Below are positions 42,088 through 63,784 of a stretch of 64,000 bases of DNA, piece by piece. The notes below the pieces were generated by a model that made no database searches, was not told the origin of the DNA, and saw nothing but the letters and a program-made list of their open reading frames with translations. The DNA comes from Atopobiaceae bacterium. Lineage in GTDB: Bacteria > Actinomycetota > Coriobacteriia > Coriobacteriales > Atopobiaceae. The position numbers and the translations under genes are program-made. Positions within the stretch are counted from its first letter, which is position 1; each line of letters starts with the position of its first letter. The DNA is taken from contig JAKVOB010000001.1 in NCBI GenBank assembly GCA_022483015.1, positions 1,760,902-1,824,901 on the forward strand, written 5' to 3'.

Positions 42088-42112
42088 GCCACGGGAGGTT
42101 CGCAGAGCCAAG

Positions 42113-42149
42113 ACGGCGCCCACGGCAGCGGACCTGCCGTGGGCGCCGT
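42113..42149. terminator. Hairpin between the small membrane protein and EIIA copy 2
   Basis: A perfect 16-bp GC-rich stem (42113-42128 with 42134-42149) has a 5-nt loop and lies between convergent stops. It is likely bidirectional and has no long U-tract. Confidence 0.75.
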
Positions 42150-42192
42150 TGTCTCGAGAAGGGGGCGACGATGGCCCGCTCTCGGTCACGAG

Positions 42193-42711
42193 CTACTTGC
42201 GAGTGACCTTTATTGCCACCTCGCCTGCCTTGACGGGACCCGCCGCACGGGGGTCCACCGAGGCGAACTCAGGCGTGTTCGAGATGACACAGATCACGAT
42301 GTCATCATGGCCGGCCGCCTTGATCTTCTCGCGGTCGAAGGTGATGAGGGGCGTGCCGGCATCCACATGCTCATCGGTCTCGACCATGCGCCTGAAACCG
42401 TCGCCCTTCATATCGACCGTGTCGACGCCGATGTGGATGAGGACCTCGATGCCATCGTCAGTGGTGAGGCCGATGGCATGGTTCGTGCCCGTGGTGGCAG
42501 TGATGGTACCGCTCACCGGTGCGTAGCAGACGCCGTCCTCAGGCCAGATGCCGAGGCCCTGACCGAGGATGCCTCCCGAGAACACGGGATCGGGTACCTC
42601 CGCGAGCCCGACGGCACGACCGCTCGCTGGAGCAGCCGCCTCGTCAGCAGCGATGTGGACCACGACGGGATCGGGCGTCGATTCCTTCTTGAACCTATCG
42701 AATAGACCCAT
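42193..42711 (-). CDS. PTS glucose-family EIIA protein, copy 2
   Basis: A 172-residue paralog of the EIIA at 39454, the same length and about three-quarters identical by eye. It keeps NHAIGL and IEVLIHIGVDTVDMKG, so it should be phosphorylated at the same His. The two copies stand 2.2 kb apart on the same strand. GAGGAG lies 8 bases before the ATG at 42711. It is downstream of the DUF1097 gene with a 90-bp gap. Confidence 0.92.
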   Translation of the reverse strand: MGLFDRFKKESTPDPVVVHIAADEAAAPASGRAVGLAEVPDPVFSGGILGQGLGIWPEDGVCYAPVSGTITATTGTNHAIGLTTDDGIEVLIHIGVDTVDMKGDGFRRMVETDEHVDAGTPLITFDREKIKAAGHDDIVICVISNTPEFASVDPRAAGPVKAGEVAIKVTRK

Positions 42712-42801
42712 GATCAATACTCCTCACATAGAAGTGACGTGCTGCTGGCAGGTTCTACCCACGTACGGCCACGTTGTGGTCGATGAAGCCATCCGATTGC
42801 C

Positions 42802-43341
42802 CTACTTGCCGCAGGGGCTCGAGACCTCGGAGGAGAGTTCCTCCCTTTGCCTGGCCCTGCCTCGGAGGATCCTCTTGCAGAGCGCGTCGAGACCCCATCC
42901 GACATACCAGACCCCGACGAGCATGGCGACCCCGATCTGGAGCGGAAGCGTCCCGAGGTTCGCGAACCCGATGGAACCCATGATGGCAAGGCCGATCGCC
43001 CAGCCGCACAGCGTGCTCGGCAGATTGACCCATCGCCCAAGTGACGTCACGACGACCACCGTCACGAACCCGAGCACGGCCAAGGTCAGGAACGTCGAGA
43101 GGTCCGAGGGAAGGGGCAGGACGCCCATAAGCCAGATCGCAAGGACCGACACGGCATCCCCGAGCACGAACCCCAGGGACATCCTGGGAGCATCCTGCGC
43201 CTTGTTGCCATTGGCCACATAGACACCGGCGCAGATGAGCGCCACGGCCCCGGTCGTGATTCCCACGTGCCCTGCGAACACCGCCCAGGCGGGAGGGAGG
43301 ATGGCAATTCCAAGTGCGGTTATGAGTGTTTCCTTCTTCAC
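42802..43341 (-). CDS. DUF1097 membrane protein
   Basis: A 179-residue protein with five predicted helices. The N-terminus MKKETLITALGIAILPPAWA and the small-residue-rich first helices match the DUF1097 family, whose role is unknown. It closes the reductase operon, 73 bp after the flavoprotein gene, where a small GC hairpin (around 43374-43391) intervenes. A role as channel, transporter or membrane anchor for the soluble reductases is speculation. The C-terminal tail is charged and cytoplasmic. Confidence 0.72.
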   Translation of the reverse strand: MKKETLITALGIAILPPAWAVFAGHVGITTGAVALICAGVYVANGNKAQDAPRMSLGFVLGDAVSVLAIWLMGVLPLPSDLSTFLTLAVLGFVTVVVVTSLGRWVNLPSTLCGWAIGLAIMGSIGFANLGTLPLQIGVAMLVGVWYVGWGLDALCKRILRGRARQREELSSEVSSPCGK

Positions 43342-43414
43342 GTACGACCTCTCTCTCGGTTCCCTTATCGGTCATCCCCCACAAGCGGGGGACGGTCCCA
43401 TGTCGATTCCGCCA

Positions 43415-44866
43415 TCAGGCGCCAGCGACCTCGACCGCCCTCTCTCCGGCCATGCGTCCGGAGTTGATGGCGAAGCCCATGGTGTTCCCAGGCAGCGTGA
43501 AGTTATAGGAGTCCCCATAGATCGTGTTGGCGTCGGAGCCGGCGCTCAGCAGGCCTGGAATGGGTTCCTGGGCCTCGTCGAGCACCTCGCAGTACTTGTT
43601 GATGCGCACGCCGCCGACGGTCCCATAGGCACCGAGGTAGAACTTCCCTGCGAGGTACTTGCCCTTGCCTGTGATGGGATGCAGGAACTTCTGAGGCTTA
43701 TGGAAACGCTCGTCCACCCCGAAGTCGCAGTAGTCGTTGTACTCGTCGATGGTGTCCTGCAGCTTGTCGGCATCGATGCCGAGCTTATCTGCAAGCTCGG
43801 AGATGGTATCAGCCTCGAAGTAGGCGGAGTAGCCCTGCTCCACAGCCTGCTTGGCCTGGTCGTCGAAGGAGAGGAACGCGTCTGCCGGATGGACGATATC
43901 GAAGATGTCAGGGCCATTCTTCTTATAGCTCCGGAGGATCCTCTCGTCCATGATCGCGTAGGCATAATGACCTGGTTGCATGCCGATGGCATTGCCCGTG
44001 AAGGTGGTGTTGCCCATGTCGCCCTCATTCATGAAGCGCTCCCCCTTCTGGTTGATGAGGAGGTTGGGCTGGCGGAGCACCGCATCGAGCACAAACCAGT
44101 TGAGGTTGTCGGGAAGCTGGTAGATGACCTCGATGTTGGGATTGAACTTGACGGCACCTGCCTTCCACATCATGTTGAGGCCATCGCCCTCGATGCCTGG
44201 CACCATGAACGGGAAGTAGTCCTCGGCAAGGTTGAGACCGAACTCGTCCTTGATCATCTGCTTGTTGTTGCCAAAGCCGCCTGTGGCTACGATGACCGAC
44301 TTCGCACGGGCCTCGATCTCGTCCCCTGCGGCGTTGGTCGCATGAACCCCGACGACCGCACCGTCCTCCACGACGAGTTCGGAGACGGGGGTCTCGAGGT
44401 TGATCTGGACACCCAGTTCCTCAGCCCTCTTCGTCATGGCCTTGATCATGGGGCCGGCGACGCGCGGACCGATGACGCCGTTCTCTGGCTTCACGATGTG
44501 CCAGGTGGCCTCAGAGTCACGGAAGTAGCGGAAGGCACCGGCAAACTCCACGCCCATGTCCTCCAACCAGGAGATGGTGTCGGCCGACTTGTTGAAGTAG
44601 GTCTGGACCAGGTCCTCGTCCACGCGGTAGTGGGTATAGCGCATGTGGAGGTCGAGAGCCTCCTCGACAGTGATGTCGTTGAACGCCTTCTTCTGCACGT
44701 CAGTATCGATGCCCAGGGGACCCATGCCCATGTTGGCAGTGCCTCCCGTACCGTTCTCCTTCTCGAACACGAGGGCCTTGAGGCCGCCTTCCCCTGCCGC
44801 GATTGCCGCAGCAAGGCCAGCCGGACCAGCCGCCACGATGATGACGTCCGCGCTCATTTGCTTCAT
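43415..44866 (-). CDS. FAD-dependent fumarate reductase/urocanate reductase-like flavoprotein
   Basis: A 483-residue FAD_binding_2 protein. The dinucleotide motif reads VIIVAAGPAGLAAAIAAGEG, followed by FEKENGTGGTANM, then the second FAD segment VIVATGGFGNNKQMI, and near the C-terminus LSAGSDANTIYGDSYNFTLP. This is the flavoprotein layout of soluble fumarate reductases and related enzymes that hydrogenate C=C bonds next to a carboxylate or ketone. There is no signal peptide, heme or FMN-binding domain, so it must receive electrons from partner proteins in the cytoplasm. ATG 44866 follows AAGGAG. The upstream NuoF-like and NuoG/GltD genes are the obvious donors. Confidence 0.85.
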   Translation of the reverse strand: MKQMSADVIIVAAGPAGLAAAIAAGEGGLKALVFEKENGTGGTANMGMGPLGIDTDVQKKAFNDITVEEALDLHMRYTHYRVDEDLVQTYFNKSADTISWLEDMGVEFAGAFRYFRDSEATWHIVKPENGVIGPRVAGPMIKAMTKRAEELGVQINLETPVSELVVEDGAVVGVHATNAAGDEIEARAKSVIVATGGFGNNKQMIKDEFGLNLAEDYFPFMVPGIEGDGLNMMWKAGAVKFNPNIEVIYQLPDNLNWFVLDAVLRQPNLLINQKGERFMNEGDMGNTTFTGNAIGMQPGHYAYAIMDERILRSYKKNGPDIFDIVHPADAFLSFDDQAKQAVEQGYSAYFEADTISELADKLGIDADKLQDTIDEYNDYCDFGVDERFHKPQKFLHPITGKGKYLAGKFYLGAYGTVGGVRINKYCEVLDEAQEPIPGLLSAGSDANTIYGDSYNFTLPGNTMGFAINSGRMAGERAVEVAGA

Positions 44867-44941
44867 GTCATGCTCCTTCTCTTGTGTCACGCGATCTGAT
44901 GGACAACTACGGGGCGCGTCGAGCGCGTCAGTGCCATCGCC

Positions 44942-46130
44942 CTACCGCCTTCTGAACCTTCCCACCCTCGTAAGCCGTTCGGGCAGTGGTGGCGTCCGCC
45001 CCTCCACACGCTTGATGGCTCCCTCGGGACACGCTTCCAGGCATGCCCCACACGAGTCACAGCCGAACTCATCGATCATCGAGATGAACCCATCACGACC
45101 ATCGATGCATCCCTGGGGACAGGCATCGATGCAGTCACCACAGCCTTCGCAGAGCGAGGGGTCAACGTAGTATTTGAGGAAGGCCTTGCAAGCACCCGAC
45201 GGGCACGTCTTCTTGCGAAGGTGGGCCTCGACCTCGTCGGCAAACATGTCGAGCGCGCTCTGGGCGGGATGGCACGCGACCTGCCCGAGCGAGCAGAGCG
45301 TCGAGTGCGGCATCGCCTCGCAGAGCTCGCGGGCGACATCAAGGTCGGAGGCCTTGCCCCGCGCAAGCGTGACCGCCTTGAAGGTGGTCTCGAGCTGATA
45401 GAGGCCCTCGCGGCAGAACGTGCACGTTCCACAGCTCTTCTCGCGGAGAACTCCCACCTGCTCGCATACGGCCTGCACGACGCAGTCATCCTCGCCATAG
45501 GCACGGATGGTGCCGTCGCCGAGGGCCAGCGTCGCGGGAAGGGGCTCATCGAGGATCGTGGCCGGGTAGAGCGTGTGGTTGACACACAGGAAGCGAGCGT
45601 CAGCGGCAGGGACCACGTCTCGCAGCGACGTGCCGAAGGGGACGCAGGCCAGACCATCTGCCGTGACGACGACCGCCTGGGGACCTGACCCCACGAGCGC
45701 GTCAGCCATGGCGGCGAGGGTCACGAGGTGGACCTTCACGTCTCTCTCATGAGCGTGTGCGCTCACCATGTTGTTGACCTCGACCGTGACCTCGAACCCC
45801 GCCTTGCCGACAGCCTCGACGATGGGTGAGGAGACCTCCTGGCCTGCATCGGAGGGAAGGACGAGCAGGACCGAACCGGCCCCGCAGACCTTGCAGACAG
45901 CGATGATGCCAGCGGCCACACCATGGGGATTGAGGACTCGCGACCTCGGCGAGCCCTCCAGAGCAATCGGCATTATCGAGCGCAGCGACCACGACGTCCG
46001 CTTGGAACAGGTCGTCGGTGACCGGATGCGCGCTCGAACCTGCACAGAAGACACCGGATACACGCTCACGCACGTCTGATGCCGACATCTCGCTTACGAC
46101 CGCTGGTGCCTTGACATTGTCCTCAAGCAT
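44942..46130 (-). pseudogene. NuoF-like iron-sulfur protein with two C-terminal [4Fe-4S] sites, frameshifted
   Basis: The start ATG at 46130 overlaps the preceding stop. The first frame runs to ...VVVAALDNAD near 45967; one extra base at about 45964-45966 then shifts the frame, and the rest (LEGSPRSRVLNPHGVAAG onward) is intact to 44942. The joined protein of about 395 residues shows a reduced NuoF core, a SLBB-like stretch, the NADH-dehydrogenase Fe-S domain CGTCTFCREGLYQLE...C, and two ferredoxin motifs CEGCGDCIDACPQGC and CDSCGACLEACPEG. The glycine-rich GRGGAGFP FMN/NADH loop of NuoF is missing, as is the domain that carries it. It probably links electrons within the operon. The frameshift may be real or a sequencing error. 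Confidence 0.78.
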
Positions 46131-48268
46131 CACTCGCTCGCCTCCCCTGCGGAAACGCTCGTTTGCGGATAGTCGTTCCAGAGACGTGGGGGGTCTATCT
46201 GGAAGCGCAGCTCGCACTGGAGGCAACGACCCGCCTCGCATGCAGCGGTGGCCGGATCGAACACCTTCGACACAGCATCGAAGGAACGCACCCGCTCCCC
46301 TGCCGGAACCATCTGTTCGCTCTTTCTCTCCTGCGTAGCAAACCCCTCGATGCGACCGATACAGGGATTGGGCTCCTCGGCGTCCACGAGCGCCTCTGAG
46401 ATGTCGCCATCCCCTCCCAAGAAACGGTCGATCTGCGTCGCCGCCTCACGACCCGATGCGAGCGCGTCAATGACGAAGCTGATCCCTCGCACGGCATCGC
46501 CAGCCGCGAACAGGTTGTCGAAGCCCTTGACCTTGAGGGAGCTGGATTGGTCGGTAAGGGCGATGGTGTTCGAGCGGCCGTGCTCGATCCCGGCAGCCTC
46601 ATCGAAGTCCTCGCCTCGCTGCCCGACAGCGAACACCACCATGTCGACATCGAAGGTCCGCTCGGAGTCCTCCACCTCATCAAGCTCGAGACCCTGGGGG
46701 CCAAACGAGAAGCCGTTGATTCCCACGGTCCGGATGCCCGAGACATGACCATCCGTCGTAAGGACCTCGATGAAGCTCTTGGATGGGTGCACCTCGACAC
46801 CCTCCTCCTTTGCTTCCTCGATCTCATCGGGGGTGGCCTTCATCTGCTCGGCGCTCTCGAGGCAGGAGAGCACGACCGTCTCCGCTCCCATGCGCAGGAG
46901 GGTGCGCGCCGTGTCGAAGCCCACCGACCCACCTCCGATGACGAAGGCGTGCCTTCCGGTCGGGAGGGGATCGCCCTTGTTGACGCTCTCCATGTACTCG
47001 ATGGCAGTGCAGGTACCCGTGGCGTCGTTCCCAGGCATGCGCAGGCGCGTCCCCAGCGAGACCCCCGTGGAGACGAGCGCCGCATCATAGCGGGAGGCCA
47101 GCTCGGCCGGATTCGTGATCGGGCTGTCACAGTGGAGCTCCACGCCCGTCTCGAGGATGTCCGCGACCTCGGACTGGACGACGTCCTTGGGAAGCCTGAA
47201 CGCAGGAATCCCGTACTGCATATAGCCGCCAGCCTTGGGCTGGGCCTCGAAGACGTCGACGTGATGGCCCTTCTCGGCCAGGTAATAGGCTGCCGTCATA
47301 CCAGCAGGCCCCGCCCCTACGATGGCGACGCGCTTGTCGGTGGGAGGATCGTTACGCCGACGTCCCTTCCAGGCGGCCTCGTCGTCGGCCGAGGCCACAT
47401 AGCGCTTGACCTTACAGATCGATATCGGCTCGTTCACCCTGCCACGCCGGCAGTCACCCTCGCACCGGTGGTTGCAGACATGCCCGAGCACCCCTGGAAA
47501 CGTGAGCTTCTCGCGGATGACCGCATCGGCCTGTGCGGGCTTGCCCTCTGCCACGAGATGCACATAGCGAGGGATGTCGGTATGAGCGGGACAGGCATGC
47601 TGGCACGGGATGAGGGTGTCTCGCTTCTCCACCGCGTTATAGGTCTCTATGTCGCGGATGGACCCCGTGGGACAGACCTCGGCACAAGCACCGCAGAAAC
47701 GGCAGTCGGCATCGCAGAGCAGCTTGTCATGGAGCGTCCCCACGTAGACTTCCATGTCCTCGCGCTTGTTGTACTCGAGGACGCCTACTCCGCGGAGGTC
47801 CGCGCAAGCCCTCACGCATCGACCGCAGAGGACGCAGCGGCTCATGTCATGCAGGAAGAGGTTCTGCTCCTTGACGGGGATGTTCTTCTGGCGCTCATGC
47901 ATGCGCGTCGCTGAGACGCCCATGAGCTGGATGAGCGTCTGGAACTCACAGCTCCCATACTTGGGACAGACGGAGCAGTCGGCGGGATGGGCCGCGAGGA
48001 GGAGCTCCATGGCAAGGCGGCGGAGGTGGTTGACACGGTCGGTCGAGGTGCTGACCACCATGCCGTCCTTCGCCTCGAGCCTGCATGAGGGGACGGGGCC
48101 ATCCCCTCCCTCATATTCCACGATACAGAGCCGGCACGAGCCTAGGTCGGGAAGGTCACGATGATGGCAGAGGTGCGGGATGTAGATTCCGTTCTGAAGG
48201 GCAGCCTCGAGCACGCTGGTCCCTTCGCGCACATCGACCTTCGTGCCGTCGATGGATATGGAGGCCAT
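46130..48268 (-). CDS. NuoG-like iron-sulfur/GltD-like NAD(P)H oxidoreductase fusion
   Basis: A 712-residue cytoplasmic fusion. Residues about 1-215 resemble NuoG/HydA N-termini: a [2Fe-2S] domain (HLCHHRDLPDLGSCRLC), the His-Cys site HPADCSVCPKYGSC and two [4Fe-4S] sites CVLCGRCVRAC and CRFCGACAEVCPTG. From about 225 it is a GltD/NfnB-type domain: Fer4_20-like CQHACPAHTDIPRYVHLV, the FAD motif VAIVGAGPAGMTAAYYLAEK and the NAD(P) motif FVIGGGSVGFDTARTLLRMG. The extra C-terminal cysteines are CEAGRCLQC. Such fusions pass electrons between NAD(P)H and ferredoxin-like carriers. AAAGGAGAG precedes the ATG at 48268. Its stop overlaps the NuoF-like start, so the two are translationally coupled. Confidence 0.88.
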   Translation of the reverse strand: MASISIDGTKVDVREGTSVLEAALQNGIYIPHLCHHRDLPDLGSCRLCIVEYEGGDGPVPSCRLEAKDGMVVSTSTDRVNHLRRLAMELLLAAHPADCSVCPKYGSCEFQTLIQLMGVSATRMHERQKNIPVKEQNLFLHDMSRCVLCGRCVRACADLRGVGVLEYNKREDMEVYVGTLHDKLLCDADCRFCGACAEVCPTGSIRDIETYNAVEKRDTLIPCQHACPAHTDIPRYVHLVAEGKPAQADAVIREKLTFPGVLGHVCNHRCEGDCRRGRVNEPISICKVKRYVASADDEAAWKGRRRNDPPTDKRVAIVGAGPAGMTAAYYLAEKGHHVDVFEAQPKAGGYMQYGIPAFRLPKDVVQSEVADILETGVELHCDSPITNPAELASRYDAALVSTGVSLGTRLRMPGNDATGTCTAIEYMESVNKGDPLPTGRHAFVIGGGSVGFDTARTLLRMGAETVVLSCLESAEQMKATPDEIEEAKEEGVEVHPSKSFIEVLTTDGHVSGIRTVGINGFSFGPQGLELDEVEDSERTFDVDMVVFAVGQRGEDFDEAAGIEHGRSNTIALTDQSSSLKVKGFDNLFAAGDAVRGISFVIDALASGREAATQIDRFLGGDGDISEALVDAEEPNPCIGRIEGFATQERKSEQMVPAGERVRSFDAVSKVFDPATAACEAGRCLQCELRFQIDPPRLWNDYPQTSVSAGEASE

Positions 48269-48300
48269 GGTCTCTCCTTTCGGGTTACGTCGAGCTTCCA

Positions 48301-50334
48301 TCAGATGATTGCCATGGCAGCCTGATAGCCGCCATGGACCGCATCGGCCACCATGCCCGCCCTCGAGGAGTTGCCGACGTTCCACGTCTTGGCACCGCAG
48401 CGCTCGGCGGCAGCGACAAGGGTCGCGGCCTCCTTCGAGTTGGGCTCCATGCCGAAGGAGTAGAGGCAGGTATCCGCTTTGACGGTCACGCGCTCGCCAT
48501 CGCGGTCGCAGAGGATGCCACCGGAGACGAACCCAATCGGCGTCGTCGAGAGGTCTTGGACGATGCCTCTCTTGTCCATCTCGTCGAGAAGCGCGTTGCG
48601 GTAGTAGCCGAAGGTCTCGCGAGCGATCCGGGGCTTACGGACCACCATCGTGACCTCATGGCCGTGGCGCGCGAGATGGAGGCCGACCTCGCACGCGGTG
48701 AGCCCACCGCCCGCGATCGCGACCGTATGACCGATCTCGTCCATGTGGTAATAGACATCGGAGGCGTTGAGCACGCCATCTATCCCGGGCATGTCAGGTA
48801 TCCTGTTGTGCGCGCCGACCGCGACTATCACGGCATCTGGGGCCATGCCCTTGATGAGGTCCTCGTCGGCCACGGTGTCGAGCATGACCTTTGCGCCGCT
48901 CCTGCCAAGGTCGGCGACGATGACTTCCATGGCCGCGTGGAGGTCGACCTTGTCCTCGTCATGCTCGGTGAACAGGAGCTCTCCCCCGAGCCTGGGACCG
49001 GCCTCAACGAGCGTCACGTCATGGCCGCGCTCACAAGCCGTGATGGCAGCCTGCATGCCACCGACGCCCCCACCGATCACGAGGACCTTCCGACGTCCCT
49101 CGGGAACGGGGAGGCGGTCGGGATAGAACCCGAAGCCGGTCTTGGGATTGATCGAGCAGCTCCCCATGGCCGCAGGGCTATAGACCTCGCCGGCAGCCTC
49201 GGGACCGATCTGGTCCCAGAGCGGGATGTCGGTGGGATGCTCGCAGAAGCCGGGATAGCAGTGGAAGCATCTCACGCACCGGCGAATCTCGTCCTCATGC
49301 CCCTCGAGCGTCTTGTTGGGGAGGTCGGGGTCGGCGAAGCACTGGCGTGCGAACTCGACGAAGTCGGCCTTGCCCTCGGCGATGACCTTCTCGGCAAGCT
49401 CGGGGCCGTTGAACCCACCGATGGTGGCCACGTAGGACTTGCTCACGGCAGCCTTGACCTTCGCGGCATACTCCACGTTGAGGCCATGGGGCTTGAAGAG
49501 GTCGGAGAAGGTCTTGGTCTGGTTCCCGAGCCATTTGAGGCCGTTGGACACCTGGATGATGTCGACCATGCCGTCGATCTGCTTGCAGAAGCCCACCGTG
49601 TCATCGATGGTCATACCTCCAGGCACGCCGTCCTCCGCCGAGAAGCGCAGCTCGATGACACCGTCGTCTCCGATGCCTGCACGGCAGGCCTCGATGACCA
49701 TCTTGGGGAACCGACTCCGGTTCTCGATGGAACCGCCGAACTCGTCACTGCGATGGTTGGTCCAGGGTGACACATACTGTTGGAGGAGGAAGCCATGGCC
49801 GCCGTGGAGCAGGACGCCGTCGAATCCGCACTCCTTCGCGAAGCGCGATGCCGTATAGAAGTCCTTGCAGACCTTCTCCATCATCTGACGGTCCATGGCA
49901 TAGACCTTCTGGCCATCCTCGCGCACGACATCACAGGGCCCCCAGGGAGCAGGGGATTCCTCCGCGCGCGAGCCCTCGTGCGAGAACTCGAAGTACGCCA
50001 AGGCACCACCAGCCTTGATGCGGTCCGCATACTCCTTGCAGACGTCGAAGTCGCTGCCATAGAAATGGGTCATGTCGATGGCTCGCTCCTGGAAGAGCGT
50101 ACGCCCCTCGTCGAAGTTGAGCGGCATCTCACCCGTCGACACGCAAGCGAAGCCACCCTTGGCACGGCCCTCCACCATGCGATAGATGTTCTCCTTGATC
50201 TCGGGGATGAAGTAGCTCGCGTGCACGAACATCGTCGGTGCAGCGATCAGGCGGTTCTTGTAGACCTTTCCCCTGATGGTGATTGGGCTGAAGAGGTTGG
50301 GATACCTGATCTCGCCTGGCTTCTTCTCGGTCAA
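48301..50334 (-). CDS. Old-Yellow-Enzyme-type enoate reductase (FMN, [4Fe-4S], FAD)
   Basis: A 677-residue enzyme of the 2-enoate/2,4-dienoyl-CoA reductase family (like cinnamate reductase FldZ or BaiCD). The N-terminal FMN barrel has YPNLFSPITIRGKVYKNRL, HGGHGFLLQQYVSPWTNHRS and DEFGGSIENRSRFP; the linker has CVRCFHCYPGFC for a [4Fe-4S] cluster; the C-terminal half binds FAD/NAD via VLVIGGGVGGMQAAITACER. These enzymes hydrogenate activated C=C bonds. The start is TTG 50334, 6 bases after AAAGGA, and overlaps the TGA of the upstream TetR gene, so regulator and enzyme are coupled. The physiological substrate is unknown; aromatic acrylates or polyphenol aglycones are candidates from context. 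Confidence 0.88.
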   Translation of the reverse strand: MTEKKPGEIRYPNLFSPITIRGKVYKNRLIAAPTMFVHASYFIPEIKENIYRMVEGRAKGGFACVSTGEMPLNFDEGRTLFQERAIDMTHFYGSDFDVCKEYADRIKAGGALAYFEFSHEGSRAEESPAPWGPCDVVREDGQKVYAMDRQMMEKVCKDFYTASRFAKECGFDGVLLHGGHGFLLQQYVSPWTNHRSDEFGGSIENRSRFPKMVIEACRAGIGDDGVIELRFSAEDGVPGGMTIDDTVGFCKQIDGMVDIIQVSNGLKWLGNQTKTFSDLFKPHGLNVEYAAKVKAAVSKSYVATIGGFNGPELAEKVIAEGKADFVEFARQCFADPDLPNKTLEGHEDEIRRCVRCFHCYPGFCEHPTDIPLWDQIGPEAAGEVYSPAAMGSCSINPKTGFGFYPDRLPVPEGRRKVLVIGGGVGGMQAAITACERGHDVTLVEAGPRLGGELLFTEHDEDKVDLHAAMEVIVADLGRSGAKVMLDTVADEDLIKGMAPDAVIVAVGAHNRIPDMPGIDGVLNASDVYYHMDEIGHTVAIAGGGLTACEVGLHLARHGHEVTMVVRKPRIARETFGYYRNALLDEMDKRGIVQDLSTTPIGFVSGGILCDRDGERVTVKADTCLYSFGMEPNSKEAATLVAAAERCGAKTWNVGNSSRAGMVADAVHGGYQAAMAII

Positions 50335-51080
50335 AGCGATTCCTTTCGTGTGAACGGCTCGACATGGTCTTTTCTGATGGACGCTGTGCACGTTCGACTG
50401 GCGGGGTGGGTCGCGCGGGGTGCCCTCGCACGGGCCCTCCCCTCCCTTGCCTTCCCGACGCACGGGGAGCGATGGCCGGCCGGAGCGGCCGCCTCGCCTA
50501 GGAAGAAGGGCGCGTAGTAGAGACGGTTGAGAGCAGCCGCCACCACGCGGGGCTCTATGTCCGGCCTCTCGGCGAGCCAGAACTGGATGAGGCTGTGGTG
50601 GCCGGCGAGCATGAAGGCCAGGTAGAGGTCCCGCTCGTCGCCAGGCCCGAGCACCTCGCCCAGGCGGTCGGAGAAGTAGTCGCGCATGAAGGCCGTCGCC
50701 TTGTGCCGGAACGTGGGGTCCCCATGGGGCCCGTTCAGGGCGATGACCTGCTCCCTGTGGGACATGAGCACGTCCATGCGCGCGACCATGGAGGCCGTGG
50801 GCTCGAGCTCTGACTCCGAGAAGCGCGCCTTCAGGGCGACGTCGTTGATGGCGCGCATGTTGTCGAGGAGGTCGTCCTCGAAGGTCTTCACCACGTCGTC
50901 GACGTTGTCGAAGTGCCGGTAGAACGTGGAGCGCGACACCTTGGCCTGACGAAGCACATCGGCCACCCTGATCCTCGGGATGTCGTCCGTCCGCATGAGC
51001 TCGAACACGGCATCGGTGACCCGGGCGTCGACGGGGTCGCCTGGCTCGAAGTCGCCCATCCTCCTACCACCGTCCGCCAT
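50331..51080 (-). CDS. TetR-family regulator, copy A, with unusual C-terminal extension
   Basis: A 249-residue TetR protein. It has the helix-turn-helix VADVLRQAKVSRSTFYRHFD and a helical ligand domain up to ALNRLYYAPFF. Up to there it is almost identical to copy B at 63152-63784. After that it carries about 55 residues rich in Arg, Ala and Pro that do not look like a folded domain and have no counterpart in copy B. Its TGA overlaps the TTG start of the reductase, making it the first gene of the reductase operon and probably its regulator. ATG 51080 follows GGGGGA by 6 bases; the upstream DNA differs from that of copy B. Confidence 0.88.
   Translation of the reverse strand: MADGGRRMGDFEPGDPVDARVTDAVFELMRTDDIPRIRVADVLRQAKVSRSTFYRHFDNVDDVVKTFEDDLLDNMRAINDVALKARFSESELEPTASMVARMDVLMSHREQVIALNGPHGDPTFRHKATAFMRDYFSDRLGEVLGPGDERDLYLAFMLAGHHSLIQFWLAERPDIEPRVVAAALNRLYYAPFFLGEAAAPAGHRSPCVGKAREGRARARAPRATHPASRTCTASIRKDHVEPFTRKESL
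50500..51080. repeat. 581-bp direct repeat, copy A (TetR coding region)
   Basis: It aligns without gaps to 63204-63784 (offset 12,704). I count about seven differences, roughly 99% identity. Similarity stops at the start codon on one side and a few codons before the copy-B stop on the other. Confidence 0.93.
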
Positions 51081-51976: not shown

Positions 51977-52954
51977 CTACTTGTTCAGGTACTTCCGCAT
52001 CATGGCGAGGTGACGACGGACCTGCTCGACCGTATCCGGGGCGGTGTGGTTCTCGCACTCGGAGACGATGTAGCCCTCGTAGTCAGAGTCTGCGACGACC
52101 GGCAGGATCTGCTCATAGGGAATCGAGGCCTCGTGGAGGTCCTCATACATGTAATGGAACTTGCCGTGCATGTGGAAGCAGTAGGGCATGATCTCCTTGA
52201 GGCCCTCGAGCTCCTTGTTGCAGTCCTTGCGGAACTGCACGAAGCCATACATCCCCTGGAGTGCGGAGAGGCAGGCGGCATTCGCACCCTCCTTGACGAG
52301 GCGATCGTTCGCCTCCTCGAGGGAAACGCCGTCGAGGCGCATCTGCTTGGCCTCCTCGAGCTGCTCCACGGGGGTACCCGCTGCGAGCGCCTCGTCCCAT
52401 GCCGGCTTGTTGGGCTTGGTCGCGAAGAGACCGAAGTCGGGCACGAACCCGATGTAGTGGGAGCCTGACTTCTCGATCGCCTCACGATAGGCAAGGATGG
52501 CGGGCGTGTAGGGGGTCTCGGGGTTATGGATCTCGATGCCCACCTTGACGTTGTACTCCTCCGCATAGGGAGCGAGCCTGGCGAGGGCGTCGGCACTCAG
52601 GAGGTACTGCTCGCGCATGACCTTGCAGCCCATCTTGTTGGCCTGGATGACGTCGTTGATGGCCATGGCGAGCATCTCGTCCTCGGTGAGGTTCCTGTCG
52701 CCACGAAGCCCACGGTCCATGTTCGCCGAGTAGCACACAGGCTCGATGTCGTAGTGACGGCACATGGCGGTGATCTCACCGAGGAACTTGTCGCTCACGT
52801 AGGGATAGGACGGAATCATCTGGGTGGCGACGATCTCGAAGCCCTCGGCGCCAGCCTCCTTGGCATGACGGATGCAGTCCTCGAGGTCGAACTCGCCCGT
52901 GCACCACTGCCTCGTGTAGCAAAAGAGGGTTATTCCAAGCTTGATGTTACTCAT
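51977..52954 (-). CDS. Sugar-phosphate isomerase/epimerase-fold protein, DgpC/CarC-like deglycosidase alpha subunit
   Basis: A 325-residue TIM-barrel protein of the AP-endonuclease-2/xylose-isomerase-like superfamily. Likely metal ligands appear in the usual order: Glu in VGIEIHNPE, Asp in GFVPDFGLF, His in CFHMHGKFHY and Glu in YIVSECENH. The next gene upstream encodes a DUF6379 protein and overlaps it by 8 bp. This pair matches the alpha/beta subunits of C-glycoside deglycosidases, which cleave 3-keto-C-glycosides made by a Gfo/Idh/MocA oxidase (here 53460). Related pairs may act on O-glycosides, so bond type is open. The start at 52954 lies within the preceding gene's last codons. Confidence 0.8.
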   Translation of the reverse strand: MSNIKLGITLFCYTRQWCTGEFDLEDCIRHAKEAGAEGFEIVATQMIPSYPYVSDKFLGEITAMCRHYDIEPVCYSANMDRGLRGDRNLTEDEMLAMAINDVIQANKMGCKVMREQYLLSADALARLAPYAEEYNVKVGIEIHNPETPYTPAILAYREAIEKSGSHYIGFVPDFGLFATKPNKPAWDEALAAGTPVEQLEEAKQMRLDGVSLEEANDRLVKEGANAACLSALQGMYGFVQFRKDCNKELEGLKEIMPYCFHMHGKFHYMYEDLHEASIPYEQILPVVADSDYEGYIVSECENHTAPDTVEQVRRHLAMMRKYLNK

Positions 52955-53396
52955 TTGTCACCGTCTCCTCATGCTCCATGACGAGCGTCTTCTTGTCGCA
53001 GCCATCGACGGGCATATAGTCCGTGTCACTGATGGGCATGTACGGGGAATGGAACATCAGCTTGAGGTCGAACTCATGCTCGCCATCACTGATGCTGCCG
53101 GGCTGGATGACCTTGATGGTCGCAGGGTCCGTGACGCACCAGAACTCGCTCACGAGGTCATGGAGCTGGCTGATGCCGAACTCCTTGCCGTTGAGGCAGA
53201 ACATGATCCTCTCGTTGTCGACCACCTTGCCGTCGACCTTGAGCTCGAACTCGTCGATGACGGAGAGGAAGTGACCACGGTAATAGCTCAGGCGGATGTC
53301 GAACTGGTACCCCGCCTTCTTGCCGTCCAGGTAGAAGTGCCTCAGGGTGCCATCACGGAGGACATCCGTGAAGTTGATCCTCATTGCATATGCCAT
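52947..53396 (-). CDS. DUF6379 protein, C-glycoside deglycosidase beta subunit-like (DgpB/CarB)
   Basis: A 149-residue beta-sandwich-type protein. Segments such as GYQFDIRLSYYRGHFLSVID, ELKVDGKVV, FGISQLHDL and IKVIQPGSISDGEHEFDLKL fit the DUF6379/C-glycoside deglycosidase beta-subunit family, in which the small subunit completes the active site of the barrel subunit. The overlap with the alpha-subunit gene and shared strand support a complex. ATG 53396 follows AAAGGGG by 6 bases; MRINF at 53384 is an alternative. A strong hairpin separates it from the upstream oxidoreductase gene. Confidence 0.82.
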   Translation of the reverse strand: MAYAMRINFTDVLRDGTLRHFYLDGKKAGYQFDIRLSYYRGHFLSVIDEFELKVDGKVVDNERIMFCLNGKEFGISQLHDLVSEFWCVTDPATIKVIQPGSISDGEHEFDLKLMFHSPYMPISDTDYMPVDGCDKKTLVMEHEETVTNE

Positions 53397-53459: not shown

Positions 53460-54563
53460 TTAGAACTTGATCTCCTTGTTCTCGCGCGCAGACTGGTAGA
53501 TCGCATCCAGGATCTGCGTGACCGCGAGGGCCTCCTCCGGCTTGACCAGAGGCTCGGTGTCATTGGCAACGGCCTCGAGCCACTGGCGACAGTCGATGCA
53601 TCCCTCGTCACCACTGCCGCCACCAAAGTAGGCGACGCCACCGACCGGGGAGAGCTTCTCCTCCATGAGCTGGCCGTTGCGACCACGGTTATAGATGAGC
53701 TCGTTCTTGTCGTAGCTCATGCCCGAATGGATCTCCGCACCCGCAGCCGTGCCGCAGAGCGTCGTCGAGGCCTCGCGGGACTCGAGGATGTTGAGCGCCC
53801 AGCTGGCCTCCAGGCCGATCGTGGCACCGTTCTTCATCTTGATGAAGCCCATGGCGGAGTCCTCGACCTCGTAGGTCTTGGGATCCCAGGGCCCGAAGAG
53901 GTTGCCCTCGGTCGCCTGCTGGAGGCCGCCGAGCTTGTAGAACACGGAACCCGTCACGGAGTCGATGTCATAGTTGCCCATGCACCAGAGGGTGATGTCG
54001 AGCGCGTGGGTACCGATGTCGATGAGGGGGCCACCGCCCTGCTGGGCCTTGTCCATGAAGACGCCCCAGGTAGGAACTCCCCTACGACGCACGGCATGGG
54101 CCTTGGCATAGTAGATGTCACCGAGGTCGCCCGCCACGCAGGAGGCGTGGAGGTTCTGCACCTCCGGACGGAAGCGGTTCTGGTACCCGATGGTGAACTG
54201 CTTGCCTGACTTCTTCCAGGCGTCCACCATCTTCTGCGCCTCGACGGGGCTGTTGGACATCGGCTTCTCGCAGTACACGTCCTTGGCCGCCTCGAAGGCA
54301 GCGATCGTGATCTCGCTGTGGGCCACGTTGGGGGTGCAGACGTGTACCACGTCGATCGAGGGGTCGCTCAGCAGCTCGTGATAGTCCGTGTAGACCTTCG
54401 CGCCGGCGGTGCCGAAGTCCTCTGCCGCCTTCTTGGCACGCTCCTCCACGATGTCGCAGAACGCGACCACCTCGCAGAGGTCCTCGTTCTTCTGGAGGGC
54501 GGGAAGATGCTTCGAGTTGGCGATTCCACCACAACCGATGATTCCGACCTTGATCTTAGCCAT
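53460..54563 (-). CDS. Gfo/Idh/MocA oxidoreductase, DgpA/CarA-like glycoside 3-oxidase candidate
   Basis: A 367-residue NAD(P)-dependent enzyme. The Rossmann motif is KVGIIGCGGIANSKHLPAL, the active-site Lys is in DVYCEKPMSNSP, and the C-terminal domain has GGGPLIDIGTHALDITLW, whose Asp and His belong to the catalytic set. The length and immediate position before the DUF6379 and barrel genes match DgpA, which oxidises the sugar C3 hydroxyl of C-glucosides. Regiospecificity is inferred from context. GAAAGGAGC precedes the ATG at 54563. It is the third gene of the operon that begins at 56637. Confidence 0.85.
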   Translation of the reverse strand: MAKIKVGIIGCGGIANSKHLPALQKNEDLCEVVAFCDIVEERAKKAAEDFGTAGAKVYTDYHELLSDPSIDVVHVCTPNVAHSEITIAAFEAAKDVYCEKPMSNSPVEAQKMVDAWKKSGKQFTIGYQNRFRPEVQNLHASCVAGDLGDIYYAKAHAVRRRGVPTWGVFMDKAQQGGGPLIDIGTHALDITLWCMGNYDIDSVTGSVFYKLGGLQQATEGNLFGPWDPKTYEVEDSAMGFIKMKNGATIGLEASWALNILESREASTTLCGTAAGAEIHSGMSYDKNELIYNRGRNGQLMEEKLSPVGGVAYFGGGSGDEGCIDCRQWLEAVANDTEPLVKPEEALAVTQILDAIYQSARENKEIKF

Positions 54564-54640: not shown

Positions 54641-55684
54641 CTAGAAGAGGATCGCCTTGCCCGTAGCGGCAGACTCACGCGCCGCCTCCATGACAGAGAG
54701 CACCCTTCTGACCTCGGGTATCTTGATAAGGGACTCTTCCTTGCCGTTGAGCACCCCGTTGACGTTGCGATAGAAGTCGAGCCAGTCCGTCTCCACGAAG
54801 GGGAGTGGCTCGGTGACGATTCCTCCGGGAGGGACCGGGGCGAACTGACGCGTGGGACCGGCCTCGGTCTCGGTGATCTGGGGAGGGAGCTTCTCGAGGA
54901 GCTTCCCCGTGCGGTAGATCGAGCCGTCGCAGGCGAAGTTGTCGATGACCATGGTCCCCTTGTCACCGCCCACGAGCCACCTCGGCTGATACTTGAGGAT
55001 GTAGGTCGACAGCTCGATATGGGCCGTGACGCCGTTGTCCATCTTGAGCAGGATCTTGAAGTAGTCATCCACCTCCTCATGCAGGACGTTCTTGATGTCT
55101 GCATAGAGCGAGGTGATCTTGGCGTCGGGCATCATGAACAGGATCTGGTCGATGAGGTGGACACCCCAGTCGTAGATCATGCCGCCACCGTACTTCTTAT
55201 AGAGGTGCCACTCGTGCATGTAGCCGTTGCCAGAGTGGAGCTTGGACTCGATGGTGAAGATGTTGCCGAGGAGATGCTCGTCATAGGCCTTCTTGACGAT
55301 CAGCATGTCCTTGTCCCAGCGACGGTTCTGGTGCGAGGTGAAGAAGACGCCGGCCTTCTCGCAGGCCGCGCTCATCTCGTCGAGCTCCGCGACGCTCATG
55401 GCGGCGGGCTTCTCGGTGATGACGTTCTTGCCAGCAGCGGCGGCCTTCAGGCACATGGGGCAGTGCAGGTAGTTGGGAACGGTCAGGATGACGGTGTTGA
55501 CCTCGGGATCGGCAAGGAGCTCGTCGGCCGTCTCGTACACCTTGATGCCTGCCTCGGTGGCCTCGTGGCGACGCTCCTCGTTGATGTCGCACGCCGCCGT
55601 GATGATGACACCGGCGCGGGGCGCGTTCTCGGCGTGCCACTTTCCCATGCCGCCGTATCCGATGATGCCTAGTTTGATATCCAT
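54641..55684 (-). CDS. Gfo/Idh/MocA family oxidoreductase, second paralog
   Basis: A 347-residue NAD(P)-dependent oxidoreductase with LGIIGYGGMGKWHAENAPRA, the Lys motif KNVITEKPAAMS and GGGMIYDWGVHLIDQILFMM (Asp/His pair shifted to DWGVHLID). It is only distantly similar to the next gene, so the two probably catalyse different steps, for instance oxidation of the glycoside and re-reduction of the released 3-keto sugar. That division is inference. It lies 77 bp before the DgpA-like gene and 38 bp after the isomerase-like gene. Confidence 0.85.
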   Translation of the reverse strand: MDIKLGIIGYGGMGKWHAENAPRAGVIITAACDINEERRHEATEAGIKVYETADELLADPEVNTVILTVPNYLHCPMCLKAAAAGKNVITEKPAAMSVAELDEMSAACEKAGVFFTSHQNRRWDKDMLIVKKAYDEHLLGNIFTIESKLHSGNGYMHEWHLYKKYGGGMIYDWGVHLIDQILFMMPDAKITSLYADIKNVLHEEVDDYFKILLKMDNGVTAHIELSTYILKYQPRWLVGGDKGTMVIDNFACDGSIYRTGKLLEKLPPQITETEAGPTRQFAPVPPGGIVTEPLPFVETDWLDFYRNVNGVLNGKEESLIKIPEVRRVLSVMEAARESAATGKAILF

Positions 55685-55722: not shown

Positions 55723-56637
55723 CTAGCGGACGAAGTTCCTGAGGTAGGCAGTGCTCTGCACGACTGCACGCTTGGCGCTCTCGAGGCTGCCCTCGAAGGC
55801 CTTGTCCTCGACCTCGATGCAGGTGTAGCCGTCGTAGCGGATGTCCGTGAGGGCCGAGACGAACTTGCCCCAGTCGACGTCGCCAAGGCCGGGGATCTTC
55901 GGCGACATGAACTCGAGCGGCGTGGCCATGATGCCGACGTCCTCGAGCGCGGCCTGGGAGACCTTGATGTCCTTGAAGTGGACCTGGAAGATCTTGTCCT
56001 TGAACTCGTACAGGGGCTTGATGTAGTCGATCTGCTGCCACACGAAGTGGGAGGGGTCGTAGTTGATGCCGAGGTTGTCATAGGGAAGGGCCTCGAACAC
56101 ACGACGCCAGTTGGCAGGGGACGTCATGAGGTTCTGGCCACCGGGCCACTCGTCCTCCGTGAAGAGCATCGGGCAGTTCTCGATGGCGACACGGACGCCC
56201 TTGCTCTTGGCATAGTCGAGGATGGGAGGCCATACCTCCTTGACGACCTCGAGGTTCTCCGAGACGGTCTCATCCGGGATGCGCCCGATGAACGTCGTGA
56301 TCATGTTGACGTCGAGAAGCGCGGCCGCATCGATCAGCTTGTAGAGATGAGCGATGTATGATGCACGCTTCTCGAGGTCAGGGTCAAGGGTGTTGGGATA
56401 GTACGCGAGCGCAGAGATCTCGACGCCCCTCGCCTTGCAGTAGGCCGTGATCTCCCGTGCCCGGTCCCTCGTGAGGTTCCCGACGTCGATGTGGCTGACG
56501 CCGGCGTAGCGACGCGCGGCACCTCCCTGCGGCCAGCACGCGACCTCGAGGCACTCGAGACCCGTCTCGGAGGCGAAGTCGACGACCTCCTTGAAGTCCA
56601 TCCCGTCGCAGATCGATGTGATCAATCCCAGCTTCAT
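55723..56637 (-). CDS. Sugar-phosphate isomerase/epimerase-fold protein
   Basis: A 304-residue xylose-isomerase-like TIM barrel. Metal-type residues appear in VRVAIENCPMLF (Glu), NLGINYDPSHFVW (Asp, His), IFQVHFKDIKV (His) and YTCIEVEDKAFEG (Glu). Many members next to Gfo/Idh/MocA genes isomerise or lyse keto-sugars. It differs from the DgpC-like barrel and has no beta subunit beside it. ATG 56637 follows GGAGG by 5 bases. It is the first gene of the glycoside operon, behind a region with operator-like dyads. Confidence 0.85.
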   Translation of the reverse strand: MKLGLITSICDGMDFKEVVDFASETGLECLEVACWPQGGAARRYAGVSHIDVGNLTRDRAREITAYCKARGVEISALAYYPNTLDPDLEKRASYIAHLYKLIDAAALLDVNMITTFIGRIPDETVSENLEVVKEVWPPILDYAKSKGVRVAIENCPMLFTEDEWPGGQNLMTSPANWRRVFEALPYDNLGINYDPSHFVWQQIDYIKPLYEFKDKIFQVHFKDIKVSQAALEDVGIMATPLEFMSPKIPGLGDVDWGKFVSALTDIRYDGYTCIEVEDKAFEGSLESAKRAVVQSTAYLRNFVR

Positions 56638-56730: not shown

Positions 56731-56777
56731 GCTAATAATGACTGGATTAGCAGGGGCAGAAAGGGATTGTCATTATT
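56731..56777. promoter_or_regulatory. Operator-like inverted repeats at the glycoside operon promoter
   Basis: Two dyads share sequence: GCTAAT-N9-ATTAGC at 56731-56751, and AATAATGAC (56734-56742) with GTCATTATT (56769-56777). They sit in an AT-rich patch about 95-140 bp upstream of the first operon gene, between it and the AraC-type regulator gene, and are good candidates for that regulator's sites. Confidence 0.6.
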
Positions 56778-56865: not shown

Positions 56866-59298
56866 TCAGTCGTCAGGCAGCAGGCTCACGAAGGCGATCT
56901 CGTTCGCCGCAAGCTCCACGTCGAGGACGAGCTCGCCTTGGGTGGCCTCGATGCTTCTGACCGTCAGCCTTGGCTCGCAACGATTGCTCAGGCTTTGGAT
57001 GTCCTCACGCGAGATGGCAGTGCCATACTCCATGCCCTGCCACATGTCGAGGATCGAACCGTCCTGCTGGCTGATGCCATAGACCTTGGCCTTGTAGGAT
57101 GTGCTCCGCATGCCTTGGAGACGAATCGTGACATGACAGGGCGTCTCCTCAGAGAAGTAGCGCCCCAGGGAACCTCGGTCCAGCTCGTCCTCCTCGACGG
57201 AGAAGTAGTTGTAGCCGAGTGACATGCAGTTCTGGCACACGATGCCAAAACGGTCCTTCCCGTCGGTAGTGGCCAGCCAGTGCTCCCCCCTGCCGACGTA
57301 CCGGGAGAGGAGTCTGTGGAGGAAGACGAAGGCGTAGGCGGCGGGCTTCAGTATCCCGTCCTTCGTGAGGAGCCCACATCCGCCGAAGAGGATGTCGGAG
57401 GCATCGTAGGACTCCGAGATGAGGTCGGTGGCCGAGAAGTGGGCGACCGCATCGGCCATGCCATAGGTATCGATGTAGTTCTTGATAATGTACGCGCCAT
57501 CGAAGCAGGTGTCGTTGAGCACGTTCCTGTCCGAGATCGTGATGTTCCATTCCGTGACATAGATCGGGACATCCTCGAGGCCCAAGGCCTCGAGGCTACG
57601 TCTCATGTTGGCAAGCCCGAGGCGGAGGAAGTCGAGGCTCGTGTCCCTCCTCGTCAGCCAACGGCCATCGACGAGGACGGCGTCATAACCGTAGCTGTAG
57701 ACGGAGATGAAGTCGGGGAAGACCCCACCCGAACCCCTCTCCTCCGAGAACTCCCGGAGGAACGTCAGCGCCACCGTCGAGCTCGGGTCAGCAGCAGACG
57801 AGGATGTGTGCAGGCCGCACCCGCCCAGCATGACACCGGGGACATGCTTCTTGATGATTCGGTACGTCGAGGAGAAGAGCTTGCGATAGGCACTACGACA
57901 GGCGGGGTCATCGAAGCTGTTGTCATCGAACCAGAGCTCGAACTTCCACTGCTCGACCTCGTCAGGCTGATAGCGATGGCAGAGGTGGCGCATGAAGGCA
58001 TCGATGACCTGCTCCCAGGTCTCGAGGTCCTGGGAGATTCCCGAGTCATCGAAGACGAGTGGGTCGTCGATGCCCCTCAAGATCCGTCGGGGCTTCGACG
58101 AGAGGTCTATGAAGGGCTTGGCCCCGATCTTGAGCAGGAAGTCGAGGACGTTGTCGAGGCGCGAGAAGTTGAAGGATTCTCCCGGGCGGCCGAGGTCAAG
58201 CAGCATCTCACGTGAGAATGGCGTCCAGAGGCGCACGTACTTGAATCCGACCTTCTCCTTGAGCACCGCGACATGACGCTGCACCTCGGAACTCAGGAGG
58301 TCCTCTGCGGAGCCCACATTGATGACCTCGCTCCAGGGCGTCCGGAGCGGTTCCGTCGTCGTGACGTCCACGGCGGCCTCCTCGAGGGACGCTCCTGCGG
58401 AGGCGACGTCACCAGGGACGTCGTGGTAGGCATATCGTTCGAGACGGCTTTCCATGCGGCTCTCGTCCGCAGCGACGTCCCTCTCCCTCTTGCTCGAGGC
58501 CTTTCTCTGCATCTCGGACGGGGTCTCGTGGTACTCCTCCTTGAAGGACTTGTTGAAGGAGGTCGTACTCGAGAAGCCGTTGTCATGGGCGACCCTCGTG
58601 ATGGGCTCTGAGGTGCTGAGGAGGTCGTCGACCGCATGGAGGAGCCGCACCTTGGTCAGATATGAGTTGAAGGTCATGCCATAGTGCCGCTTGAACACGC
58701 GCGAGAGATACCCTACCGAGAGGCCCAAAGTCCCAGCTGCCTCCTTGAGGCTGATGGGTTGGTCGAAGTTCGACATGATGTAGCCGTCGATCGCCTTGAT
58801 GCGATCGTCGCGCTTGCCGGTCGAGGCGTCATGGTCGAGGTCCTTGGAGCGGAAGAGGTAGTTCGCGCAGAGGTAGTCGGCGATGTGGTAGCAGAGCGAG
58901 AGGGACATGAGGCTCTCGGCATGGCAATGCCCACTGAGGTATTGGGCCAGAAGGGACTTGAGCAGGGACCGAAGCCCCTCATATGACGGGTCGTCCACCT
59001 CGGTGGAATCACAGATGAAGAGGAGGTCATAGTCATTGAAGACGTCGCGTACGATCTCATAGCCAATGGTCAGCCTCACGTAGAGCGCATCATCGGCCGC
59101 GACCAGCTCGTGGGGCTTGTTGACGTTGACGAGGAAGACATCCTGCGGGCACAGCTTGGTCTCCTGCCCATTGACGGTGACCTCGACGGTGCCCTCAAGG
59201 ACATACATGAGCTCGAGGGCCCGGTGGAAGTGAAGCGCCTCCCTGCCATCGCCGAGGACCTCCAGGACGAACCCGTCCTTACCCAAACTGAGAGACAT
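56866..59298 (-). CDS. AraC-type regulator fused to a GH39-like domain
   Basis: An 810-residue protein. Residues about 1-100 form a cupin-like sensor (ALHFHRALELMYVLEG), about 170-270 are the AraC double helix-turn-helix (ISLKEAAGTLGLSVGYLSRV and FSSTTSFNKSFKEEY), and about 320-780 resemble GH39 beta-xylosidases. The GH39 nucleophile Glu is kept in IYVTEWNITI (about 583), but the acid/base motif usually read WNEP is WFDDN here (about 456-460), so catalysis is doubtful and a sugar-sensing role more likely. ATG 59298 follows CAGGAGGTG. It lies directly upstream of the glycoside operon on the same strand and presumably controls it. Confidence 0.85.
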   Translation of the reverse strand: MSLSLGKDGFVLEVLGDGREALHFHRALELMYVLEGTVEVTVNGQETKLCPQDVFLVNVNKPHELVAADDALYVRLTIGYEIVRDVFNDYDLLFICDSTEVDDPSYEGLRSLLKSLLAQYLSGHCHAESLMSLSLCYHIADYLCANYLFRSKDLDHDASTGKRDDRIKAIDGYIMSNFDQPISLKEAAGTLGLSVGYLSRVFKRHYGMTFNSYLTKVRLLHAVDDLLSTSEPITRVAHDNGFSSTTSFNKSFKEEYHETPSEMQRKASSKRERDVAADESRMESRLERYAYHDVPGDVASAGASLEEAAVDVTTTEPLRTPWSEVINVGSAEDLLSSEVQRHVAVLKEKVGFKYVRLWTPFSREMLLDLGRPGESFNFSRLDNVLDFLLKIGAKPFIDLSSKPRRILRGIDDPLVFDDSGISQDLETWEQVIDAFMRHLCHRYQPDEVEQWKFELWFDDNSFDDPACRSAYRKLFSSTYRIIKKHVPGVMLGGCGLHTSSSAADPSSTVALTFLREFSEERGSGGVFPDFISVYSYGYDAVLVDGRWLTRRDTSLDFLRLGLANMRRSLEALGLEDVPIYVTEWNITISDRNVLNDTCFDGAYIIKNYIDTYGMADAVAHFSATDLISESYDASDILFGGCGLLTKDGILKPAAYAFVFLHRLLSRYVGRGEHWLATTDGKDRFGIVCQNCMSLGYNYFSVEEDELDRGSLGRYFSEETPCHVTIRLQGMRSTSYKAKVYGISQQDGSILDMWQGMEYGTAISREDIQSLSNRCEPRLTVRSIEATQGELVLDVELAANEIAFVSLLPDD

Positions 59299-63151: not shown

Positions 63152-63784
63152 TCAATCACAATGGTCGGGGCGGGCCGAAAGGGCAGCGCCGTCATCGGTC
63201 GTCAGGAAGAAGGGCGCGTAGTAGAGGCGGTTGAGCGTCGCCGCCACCACGCGGGGCTCTATGTCCGGCCTCTCGGCGAGCCAGAACTGGATGAGGCTGT
63301 GGTGGCCGGCGAGCATGAAGGCCAGGTAGAGGTCCCGCTCGTCGCCAGGCCCGAGCACCTCGCCCAGGCGGTCGGAGAAGTAGTCGCGCATGAAGGCCGT
63401 CGCCTTGTGCCGGAACGTGGGGTCCCCATGGGGCCCGTTCAGGGCGATGACCTGCTCCCTGCGGGACATGAGCACGTCCATGCGCGCGACCATGGAGGCC
63501 GTGGGCTCGAGCTCTGACTCCGAGAAGCGCGCCTTCAGGGCGACGTCGTTGATGGCGCGCATGTTGTCGAGGAGGTCGTCCTCGAAGGTCTTCACCACGT
63601 CGTCGACGTTGTCGAAGTGCCGGTAGAACGTGGAGCGCGACACCTTGGCCTGACGAAGCACGTCGGCCACCCTGATCCTCGGGATGTCGTCCGTCCGCAT
63701 GAGCTCGAACACGGCATCGGTGATCCGGGCGTCGACGGGGTCGCCTGGCTCGAAGTCGCCCATCCTCCTACCACCGTCCGCCAT
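63152..63784 (-). CDS. TetR-family regulator, copy B
   Basis: A 210-residue TetR protein, nearly identical to copy A through residue 193. Only three amino acid changes are visible before the tails diverge: Val/Ile near 21, His/Arg near 107 and Ala/Thr near 183. The C-terminus is a short LTTDDGAALSARPDHCD, a normal length for the family. Start ATG 63784 follows a perfect GGGAGG 4 bases upstream. It precedes the PTS EIIBC gene by 384 bp on the same strand. With the same DNA-binding domain as copy A, both proteins should recognise the same operators. Confidence 0.9.
   Translation of the reverse strand: MADGGRRMGDFEPGDPVDARITDAVFELMRTDDIPRIRVADVLRQAKVSRSTFYRHFDNVDDVVKTFEDDLLDNMRAINDVALKARFSESELEPTASMVARMDVLMSRREQVIALNGPHGDPTFRHKATAFMRDYFSDRLGEVLGPGDERDLYLAFMLAGHHSLIQFWLAERPDIEPRVVAATLNRLYYAPFFLTTDDGAALSARPDHCD
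63204..63784. repeat. 581-bp direct repeat, copy B (TetR coding region)
   Basis: The partner of 50500-51080. The two direct copies enclose 12.1 kb holding the histidine phosphatase, glycoside operon, AraC-GH39, esterase and EIIBC genes. Confidence 0.93.

Follow-up and report, generated by a model that had tools for sequence, protein, structure and literature searches.

AraC-type regulators and GH39 glycosidases have met before, and an enzyme-derived domain within a regulator is already known in kind. AryK of Staphylococcus aureus is an AraC/XylS-family regulator whose regulatory role is supported by genetics (PMC3922988), and some GH39 xylosidases bear an N-terminal AraC-like domain (PMC8543862). 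Clusters of dgp/dfg genes have been described for strain PUE, E. cellulosolvens, and Catenibacillus; in the papers we searched, we found no regulator of these clusters described, AraC-type or other. For Catenibacillus, Goris and Braune reported unusually many GH39 genes (21 and 28), and C. scindens was negative for both β-glucosidase and xylosidase activity (PMC11170127).

How does the locus studied here compare with these systems? The window—the whole 64-kb stretch of an Atopobiaceae genome that we analyzed—encodes an AraC-family regulator with a C-terminal pseudo-GH39 domain, followed downstream on the same strand by five genes, three of which match C-glycoside deglycosylation proteins (Table 1). 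The regulator starts with an ATG at 59298, ahead of which lies AGGAGGTGGGC, with an AGGAGG Shine-Dalgarno sequence. Pfam recognizes a cupin at the N terminus (Cupin_2, 1.1e-10, residues 16 to 74; AraC_binding, 1.2e-8), then helix-turn-helix motifs (residues 176 to 265; HTH_18, 3.8e-23; HTH_AraC, 3e-16 in two stretches), and finally Glyco_hydro_39 (PF01229) over residues 314 to 784, with 133 bits against a cutoff of 26. Judged by these profiles, the protein has the two-motif DNA-binding domain that characterizes the AraC/XylS family. AryK (NF047455) is its best NCBIfam match, at 181 bits against a cutoff of 850 bits and thus below the level of an equivalog. The two proteins share the N-terminal cupin/HTH region, a length class, and a homologous GH39-like C-terminal region that has lost catalytic residues; they differ in that AryK is without the nucleophile Glu as well, its GH39-like region being more degraded, and has no known C-glycoside link.

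Table 1. Features of the regulator gene and the operon beside it (coordinates are positions in the window)
Feature	Position	Strand	Basis or remark
AraC-family regulator with C-terminal pseudo-GH39 domain	56866..59298	-	810-aa ORF plus stop
N-terminal cupin, residues 16-86	59041..59253	-	HxH(x)3E(x)6G motif and conserved H63
AraC-type double helix-turn-helix, residues ~176-268	58495..58773	-	Pfam
GH39-like domain, residues 306-808	56875..58383	-	PF01229 1.7e-38 and fold match
Altered acid/base motif, W456-F-D-D-N460	57919..57933	-	WNEPN in enzymes
Retained nucleophile motif, T582-E-W-N585	57544..57555	-	Alignment
Inverted repeat AATAATGAC-N26-GTCATTATT, candidate operator	56734..56777		~100-140 bp upstream of operon
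Sugar isomerase/epimerase-like TIM barrel (AP_endonuc_2), first gene of putative target operon	55723..56637	-	PF01261 1.7e-37
Gfo/Idh/MocA oxidoreductase	54641..55684	-	Profile match; 77-84% identical in relatives' clusters
DgpA-like C-glycoside 3-oxidase (Gfo/Idh/MocA)	53460..54563	-	7xr9 DgpA 2.1e-196
C-glycoside deglycosidase beta subunit	52947..53396	-	PF19906 2e-33; 7bvr_B DgpB 3.8e-53
C-glycoside deglycosidase alpha subunit (second TIM barrel)	51977..52954	-	7bvr_A 2.8e-134

Is the C-terminal domain still a complete GH39 fold? An AlphaFold2 model of the regulator has a mean pLDDT of 89.3, with most of the GH39 part above 90, and Foldseek and VIA-align match its residues 305 to 810 to solved GH39 beta-xylosidases (VIA Z of 38.8 and rmsd of 2.5 over 453 residues against GsXynB1, 1w91/2bs9). 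Profile and modeled fold thus both place the domain in GH39. Compared with the beta-xylosidases (GsXynB1, 2bs9; Caulobacter, 4ekj; T. saccharolyticum, 1px8), the window protein has the complete fold, with Z values near 38, and the TEW motif; it differs in its AraC fusion and in the replacement of the acid/base Glu, the Asn partner of this Glu, and three further active-site residues. In phmmer alignments with 4m29, 4ekj, and 6uqj, FEVWNEPN of the enzymes corresponds to FELWFDDN, and the nucleophile region YFTEWS/FTEWS corresponds to YVTEWN. Because the alignment is ungapped at the acid/base motif, the changes can be read directly: position 457 is Phe instead of Asn, position 458 is Asp instead of Glu, and the nucleophile E583 is kept. 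Three more positions, each invariant among the enzymes, are altered (H358 to W, H534 to Y, and E628 to S), with column assignments depending on alignments at 25 to 45% identity, ungapped in the motif region. Hence, of the features of an active glycosidase, the nucleophile Glu of TEW is present, the Asn-Glu acid/base pair of WNEP is absent, and the three other columns hold different residues. From these columns we infer the geometry of the pocket.

The initial annotation had assigned the gene at these coordinates a GH39-like domain with a WFDDN motif, and this is correct, as the Pfam domains, the GH39 fold from AlphaFold2 and VIA, and the ungapped WFDD/TEWN alignment agree on it; the structural comparison with GH39 xylosidases that it proposed recovers the complete fold. 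Its description of an altered acid/base motif can be refined: WNEP is indeed changed, in that Glu has become Asp and the Asn before it is gone, and the three other residues are replaced as well. It had also named a Glu acid/base located elsewhere as grounds for rejecting the idea. None replaces the lost one in the window protein, and some relatives have an acidic residue in this column or the next. Several relatives in the window's clade have WxxE, and a relocated catalytic Glu was considered on this basis; we did not count it as catalytic, because the window protein has WFDDN and the column is variable.

Is the altered site peculiar to this gene? Scanning ~85,000 species genomes with Coriobacterial GH39 domains yielded 77 loci, mostly in Lachnospiraceae and other Clostridia, and separate PF01229 surveys covered 150 Lachnospiraceae and 200 Bacilli genomes, with full neighborhoods fetched. 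Counted as distinct sequences, ~130 AraC-fused GH39 domains have lost the Asn-Glu pair ("site-lost") and 16 have kept it ("site-intact"). The full catalytic set is present in 20/20 stand-alone GH39 sequences, a count that omits four further solo entries without the pair, which derive from fused-family frames that are broken or truncated. Loss of the pair is accompanied by two or three other active-site changes (His to Trp, His to Tyr or another residue, Glu to Ser or another residue): among 130 site-lost fusions, the H358 column is Trp in 90, the H534 column is Tyr in 60, and the E628 column is Ser in 59. The nucleophile Glu is retained in 109 of the 130, and new near-invariant residues have appeared at N327 (107/130) and N595 (115/130), while the acid/base column itself varies freely (D, E, N, P, A, T, R, or S). 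The window's own three-member clade keeps Asp458, as FDD, FDA, and FDA. Fusions that keep Asn-Glu also keep H534 (16/16), H358 (15/16), and mostly E628 (12/16), which indicates that loss or retention mostly affects the active site as a whole. Thus, by sequence, the altered site is a trait of the fused family and not an accident of a single gene.

The site-intact fusions come from Paenibacillus and a few Lachnospiraceae. They resemble the window protein in domain order and, at 830 to 880 amino acids, in length; they differ in retaining WNEP, TEW, and both His residues. Eight loci from the Bacilli survey and that of Paenibacillus cellulositrophicus encode fusions with the complete catalytic set, possibly real enzyme-regulators. 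When the motif columns are excluded from tree building, the stand-alone enzymes group together, the site-intact Lachnospiraceae fusions in the tree branch nearby, and two changes suffice to account for the motif state; the tree gives no root or direction of change. At the other extreme, five Coriobacterial AraC-GH39 relatives have lost the nucleophile Glu too (SGW/GGW) and adjoin a PTS EIIBC gene.

What lies next to these regulators? In the window, the neighbors match DgpA and both CGD subunits of the described dgp/dfg clusters, and on these sequence matches the adjoining operon is a dgp-type C-glycoside deglycosylation cluster. Regulator relatives repeatedly adjoin homologous genes: the isomerase has 74 to 78% identical homologues in three relatives' clusters, and in one of these (L031) the isomerase is 74%, the oxidoreductases 77% and 81%, CGDB 60%, and the alpha subunit 69% identical to those of the window. 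The L031 regulator, at 40% identity, diverges much faster than its adjoining enzymes (60 to 81%).

To quantify the linkage, loci were picked by their regulator and not by their neighbors, and 6 kb or more of flank was required on one side. PF19906-type (CGDB) genes lay within 8.5 kb of 47/104 site-lost fusions, 1/6 site-intact fusions, and 0/9 stand-alone enzymes. With four more site-intact and three more site-lost neighborhoods, the counts become 50/107 versus 1/10 within fusions (P = 0.04) and, with stand-alone enzymes added, 50/107 versus 1/19 (P = 6e-4), where these P values, like those that follow, overstate independence because the sequences are related. Among 150 Lachnospiraceae genomes, sampled irrespective of whether they held a fused GH39 or PF19906, a fused GH39 was found in 10 of 13 genomes with PF19906 and in 7 of 137 others (P = 4e-9), versus P = 0.09 for co-occurrence of stand-alone GH39 with PF19906. 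Of 36 PF19906 genes, 18 had a fusion no more than 10 kb away, where 2.2 would be expected. One Bacilli genome has both types, the site-lost copy inside a CGD cluster and the site-intact copy elsewhere. Likewise, among annotated records, the copies of Niallia and of an Enterococcus raffinosus plasmid are site-lost and adjoin DUF6379/Gfo clusters, while the site-intact copy of P. cellulositrophicus sits beside two GH3 genes. The linkage is partial: about half of the site-lost fusions lack a CGD gene within 8.5 kb, and next to the relative of highest identity (C. scindens L035, 43%) is an MFS_2 transporter gene rather than a CGD gene. Because half of the site-lost regulators have other neighbors, C-glycosides cannot be assumed as the ligand of the whole family. 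In the papers searched, we found neither a link of AraC-GH39 proteins to C-glycoside genes nor any account of a large AraC/pseudo-GH39 family that has both site-intact and site-lost branches and is linked to C-glycoside catabolism.

Where might the regulator bind? Sequence-specific DNA binding is predicted, the one pointer to a site being the candidate inverted repeat upstream of the operon. The initial annotation had suggested an operator at 56731 to 56777; the palindrome there is real, although relatives show no clear conservation of it. Outside this repeat, the window contains no copy of the 9-mer, and the half-site, a pattern chosen after the data were seen, occurs in the intergenic regions of 5/15 relatives (window included) versus 2.0 in shuffles. 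With 12/300 shuffles reaching that count and the pattern being post hoc, we do not claim operator conservation. Promoter and terminator scans gave results near chance. A conserved AGGTCAAAA...TTTTGACCT inverted repeat lies 3' of the regulator gene in seven relatives; these repeats look like terminators of the regulator genes, but they resemble one another in sequence more closely than terminator function would require. Elsewhere in the locus, two TetR-like genes (50331 to 51080 and 63152 to 63784, both on the minus strand) are near-identical, with 300 bp at 98% identity, and lie 12.7 kb apart, flanking the regulator, the PTS/esterase genes, and the dgp genes, which suggests a segmental duplication or insertion boundary. 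Next to the dgp genes, positions 40100 to 50463 (minus strand) hold a polyphenol-type set that includes a GH1 6-phospho-beta-glucosidase-like protein, a vinyl-phenol-reductase-like flavoprotein, NuoG/GltD-like and NADH_4Fe-4S proteins, and a BaiCD/OYE-like reductase.

What could such a protein do? We lean toward reading it as a converted GH39, predicted to act as a nonhydrolyzing glycoside sensor that switches the C-glycoside operon, and consider this somewhat more probable than an even chance. Ordinary hydrolysis cannot cleave C-glycosides, so a glycosidase fold that does not hydrolyze would make a sensible sensor for them. The GH39 domain would be a glycosidase turned into a nonhydrolyzing ligand-binding domain, in which the remodeled former active site, its nucleophile Glu still present, would probably bind an aryl C-glycoside or a closely related intermediate of the pathway. 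Ligand binding would be relayed via the linker helix to the AraC-type helix-turn-helix motifs, and these would then turn on the adjacent deglycosidase operon (from 56637 to at least 51977). Since more than 100 relatives show the same loss, often with the same neighbors, the regulator probably senses a plant compound instead of digesting it. A converted enzyme that senses its glycoside and switches the neighboring operon had been proposed from the initial annotation; the joint residue loss, the contrast with site-intact fusions, and the gene linkage agree with that proposal, and the substrate class is likely C-glycosides (dgp/dfg) and not the xylosides it had in mind.

Alternatively, the effector could bind in the cupin, the usual arrangement among AraC-type sugar regulators, with the GH39 domain serving as a scaffold or dimerization module that has no further need of an active site. 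The cupin plus helix-turn-helix arrangement is the canonical AraC layout, and H25, E29, G36, N58, and H63 of the cupin, which include its HxH(x)3E(x)6G motif, are invariant or nearly so among 79 relatives. For a mere scaffold, however, retention of the nucleophile Glu in most site-lost fusions would be unexpected, as would the new pocket consensus of W358, N327, and N595, and we regard this alternative as unlikely. We give still less credence to a general glycoside-catabolism regulator whose ligand would be, for example, a beta-glucoside entering via the upstream PTS, the C-glycoside neighborhood being incidental. The PTS EIIBC and carboxylesterase genes upstream of the regulator on the same strand, the EIIBC genes beside Coriobacterial relatives, and the half of site-lost fusions without a CGD neighbor would fit such a role; against it, CGDB lies within 8.5 kb in 10/15 relatives of the window clade, and co-occurrence at the genome level is strong.

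A bifunctional enzyme-regulator, predicted to hydrolyze glycosides slowly with Asp458 as acid/base in addition to regulating, seems very improbable. Conservation of Asp458 in the window's clade and the existence of site-intact fusions speak for it, but Asn457, His358, His534, and Glu628 are lost as well, the acid/base column varies freely, and C. scindens, with ~22 fusions, is negative for xylosidase and β-glucosidase (PMC11170127).

The nonhydrolyzing-sensor reading also bears on the Catenibacillus counts. C. scindens has 24 PF01229 hits, of which 22 lie in open frames of 629 to 984 amino acids (most ~800); these 22 match the fused-family profile through the helix-turn-helix region, and most are without the catalytic pair. 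The C. scindens "GH39" genes are better read as putative regulators, and this may explain the GH39 count in the face of absent activity. We give about even odds that the family arose when an AraC-fused glycosidase was disabled and that it then branched out into sensors for C-glycosides and further glycosides of plants, with each copy in control of a dgp-type or transport operon of its own. Because each copy would be a sensor controlling its own operon, the "GH39" genes counted in gut C-glycoside degraders would represent sensors and not enzymes. If true, annotation pipelines that count the fused genes as xylosidases would overestimate hydrolytic capacity, and bacterial degradation of C-glycosides such as puerarin, mangiferin, and isoorientin would gain candidate regulators and sensor domains. 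The family would also be a case of a glycosidase that became a sensor, in which forms with and without the catalytic site occur together.
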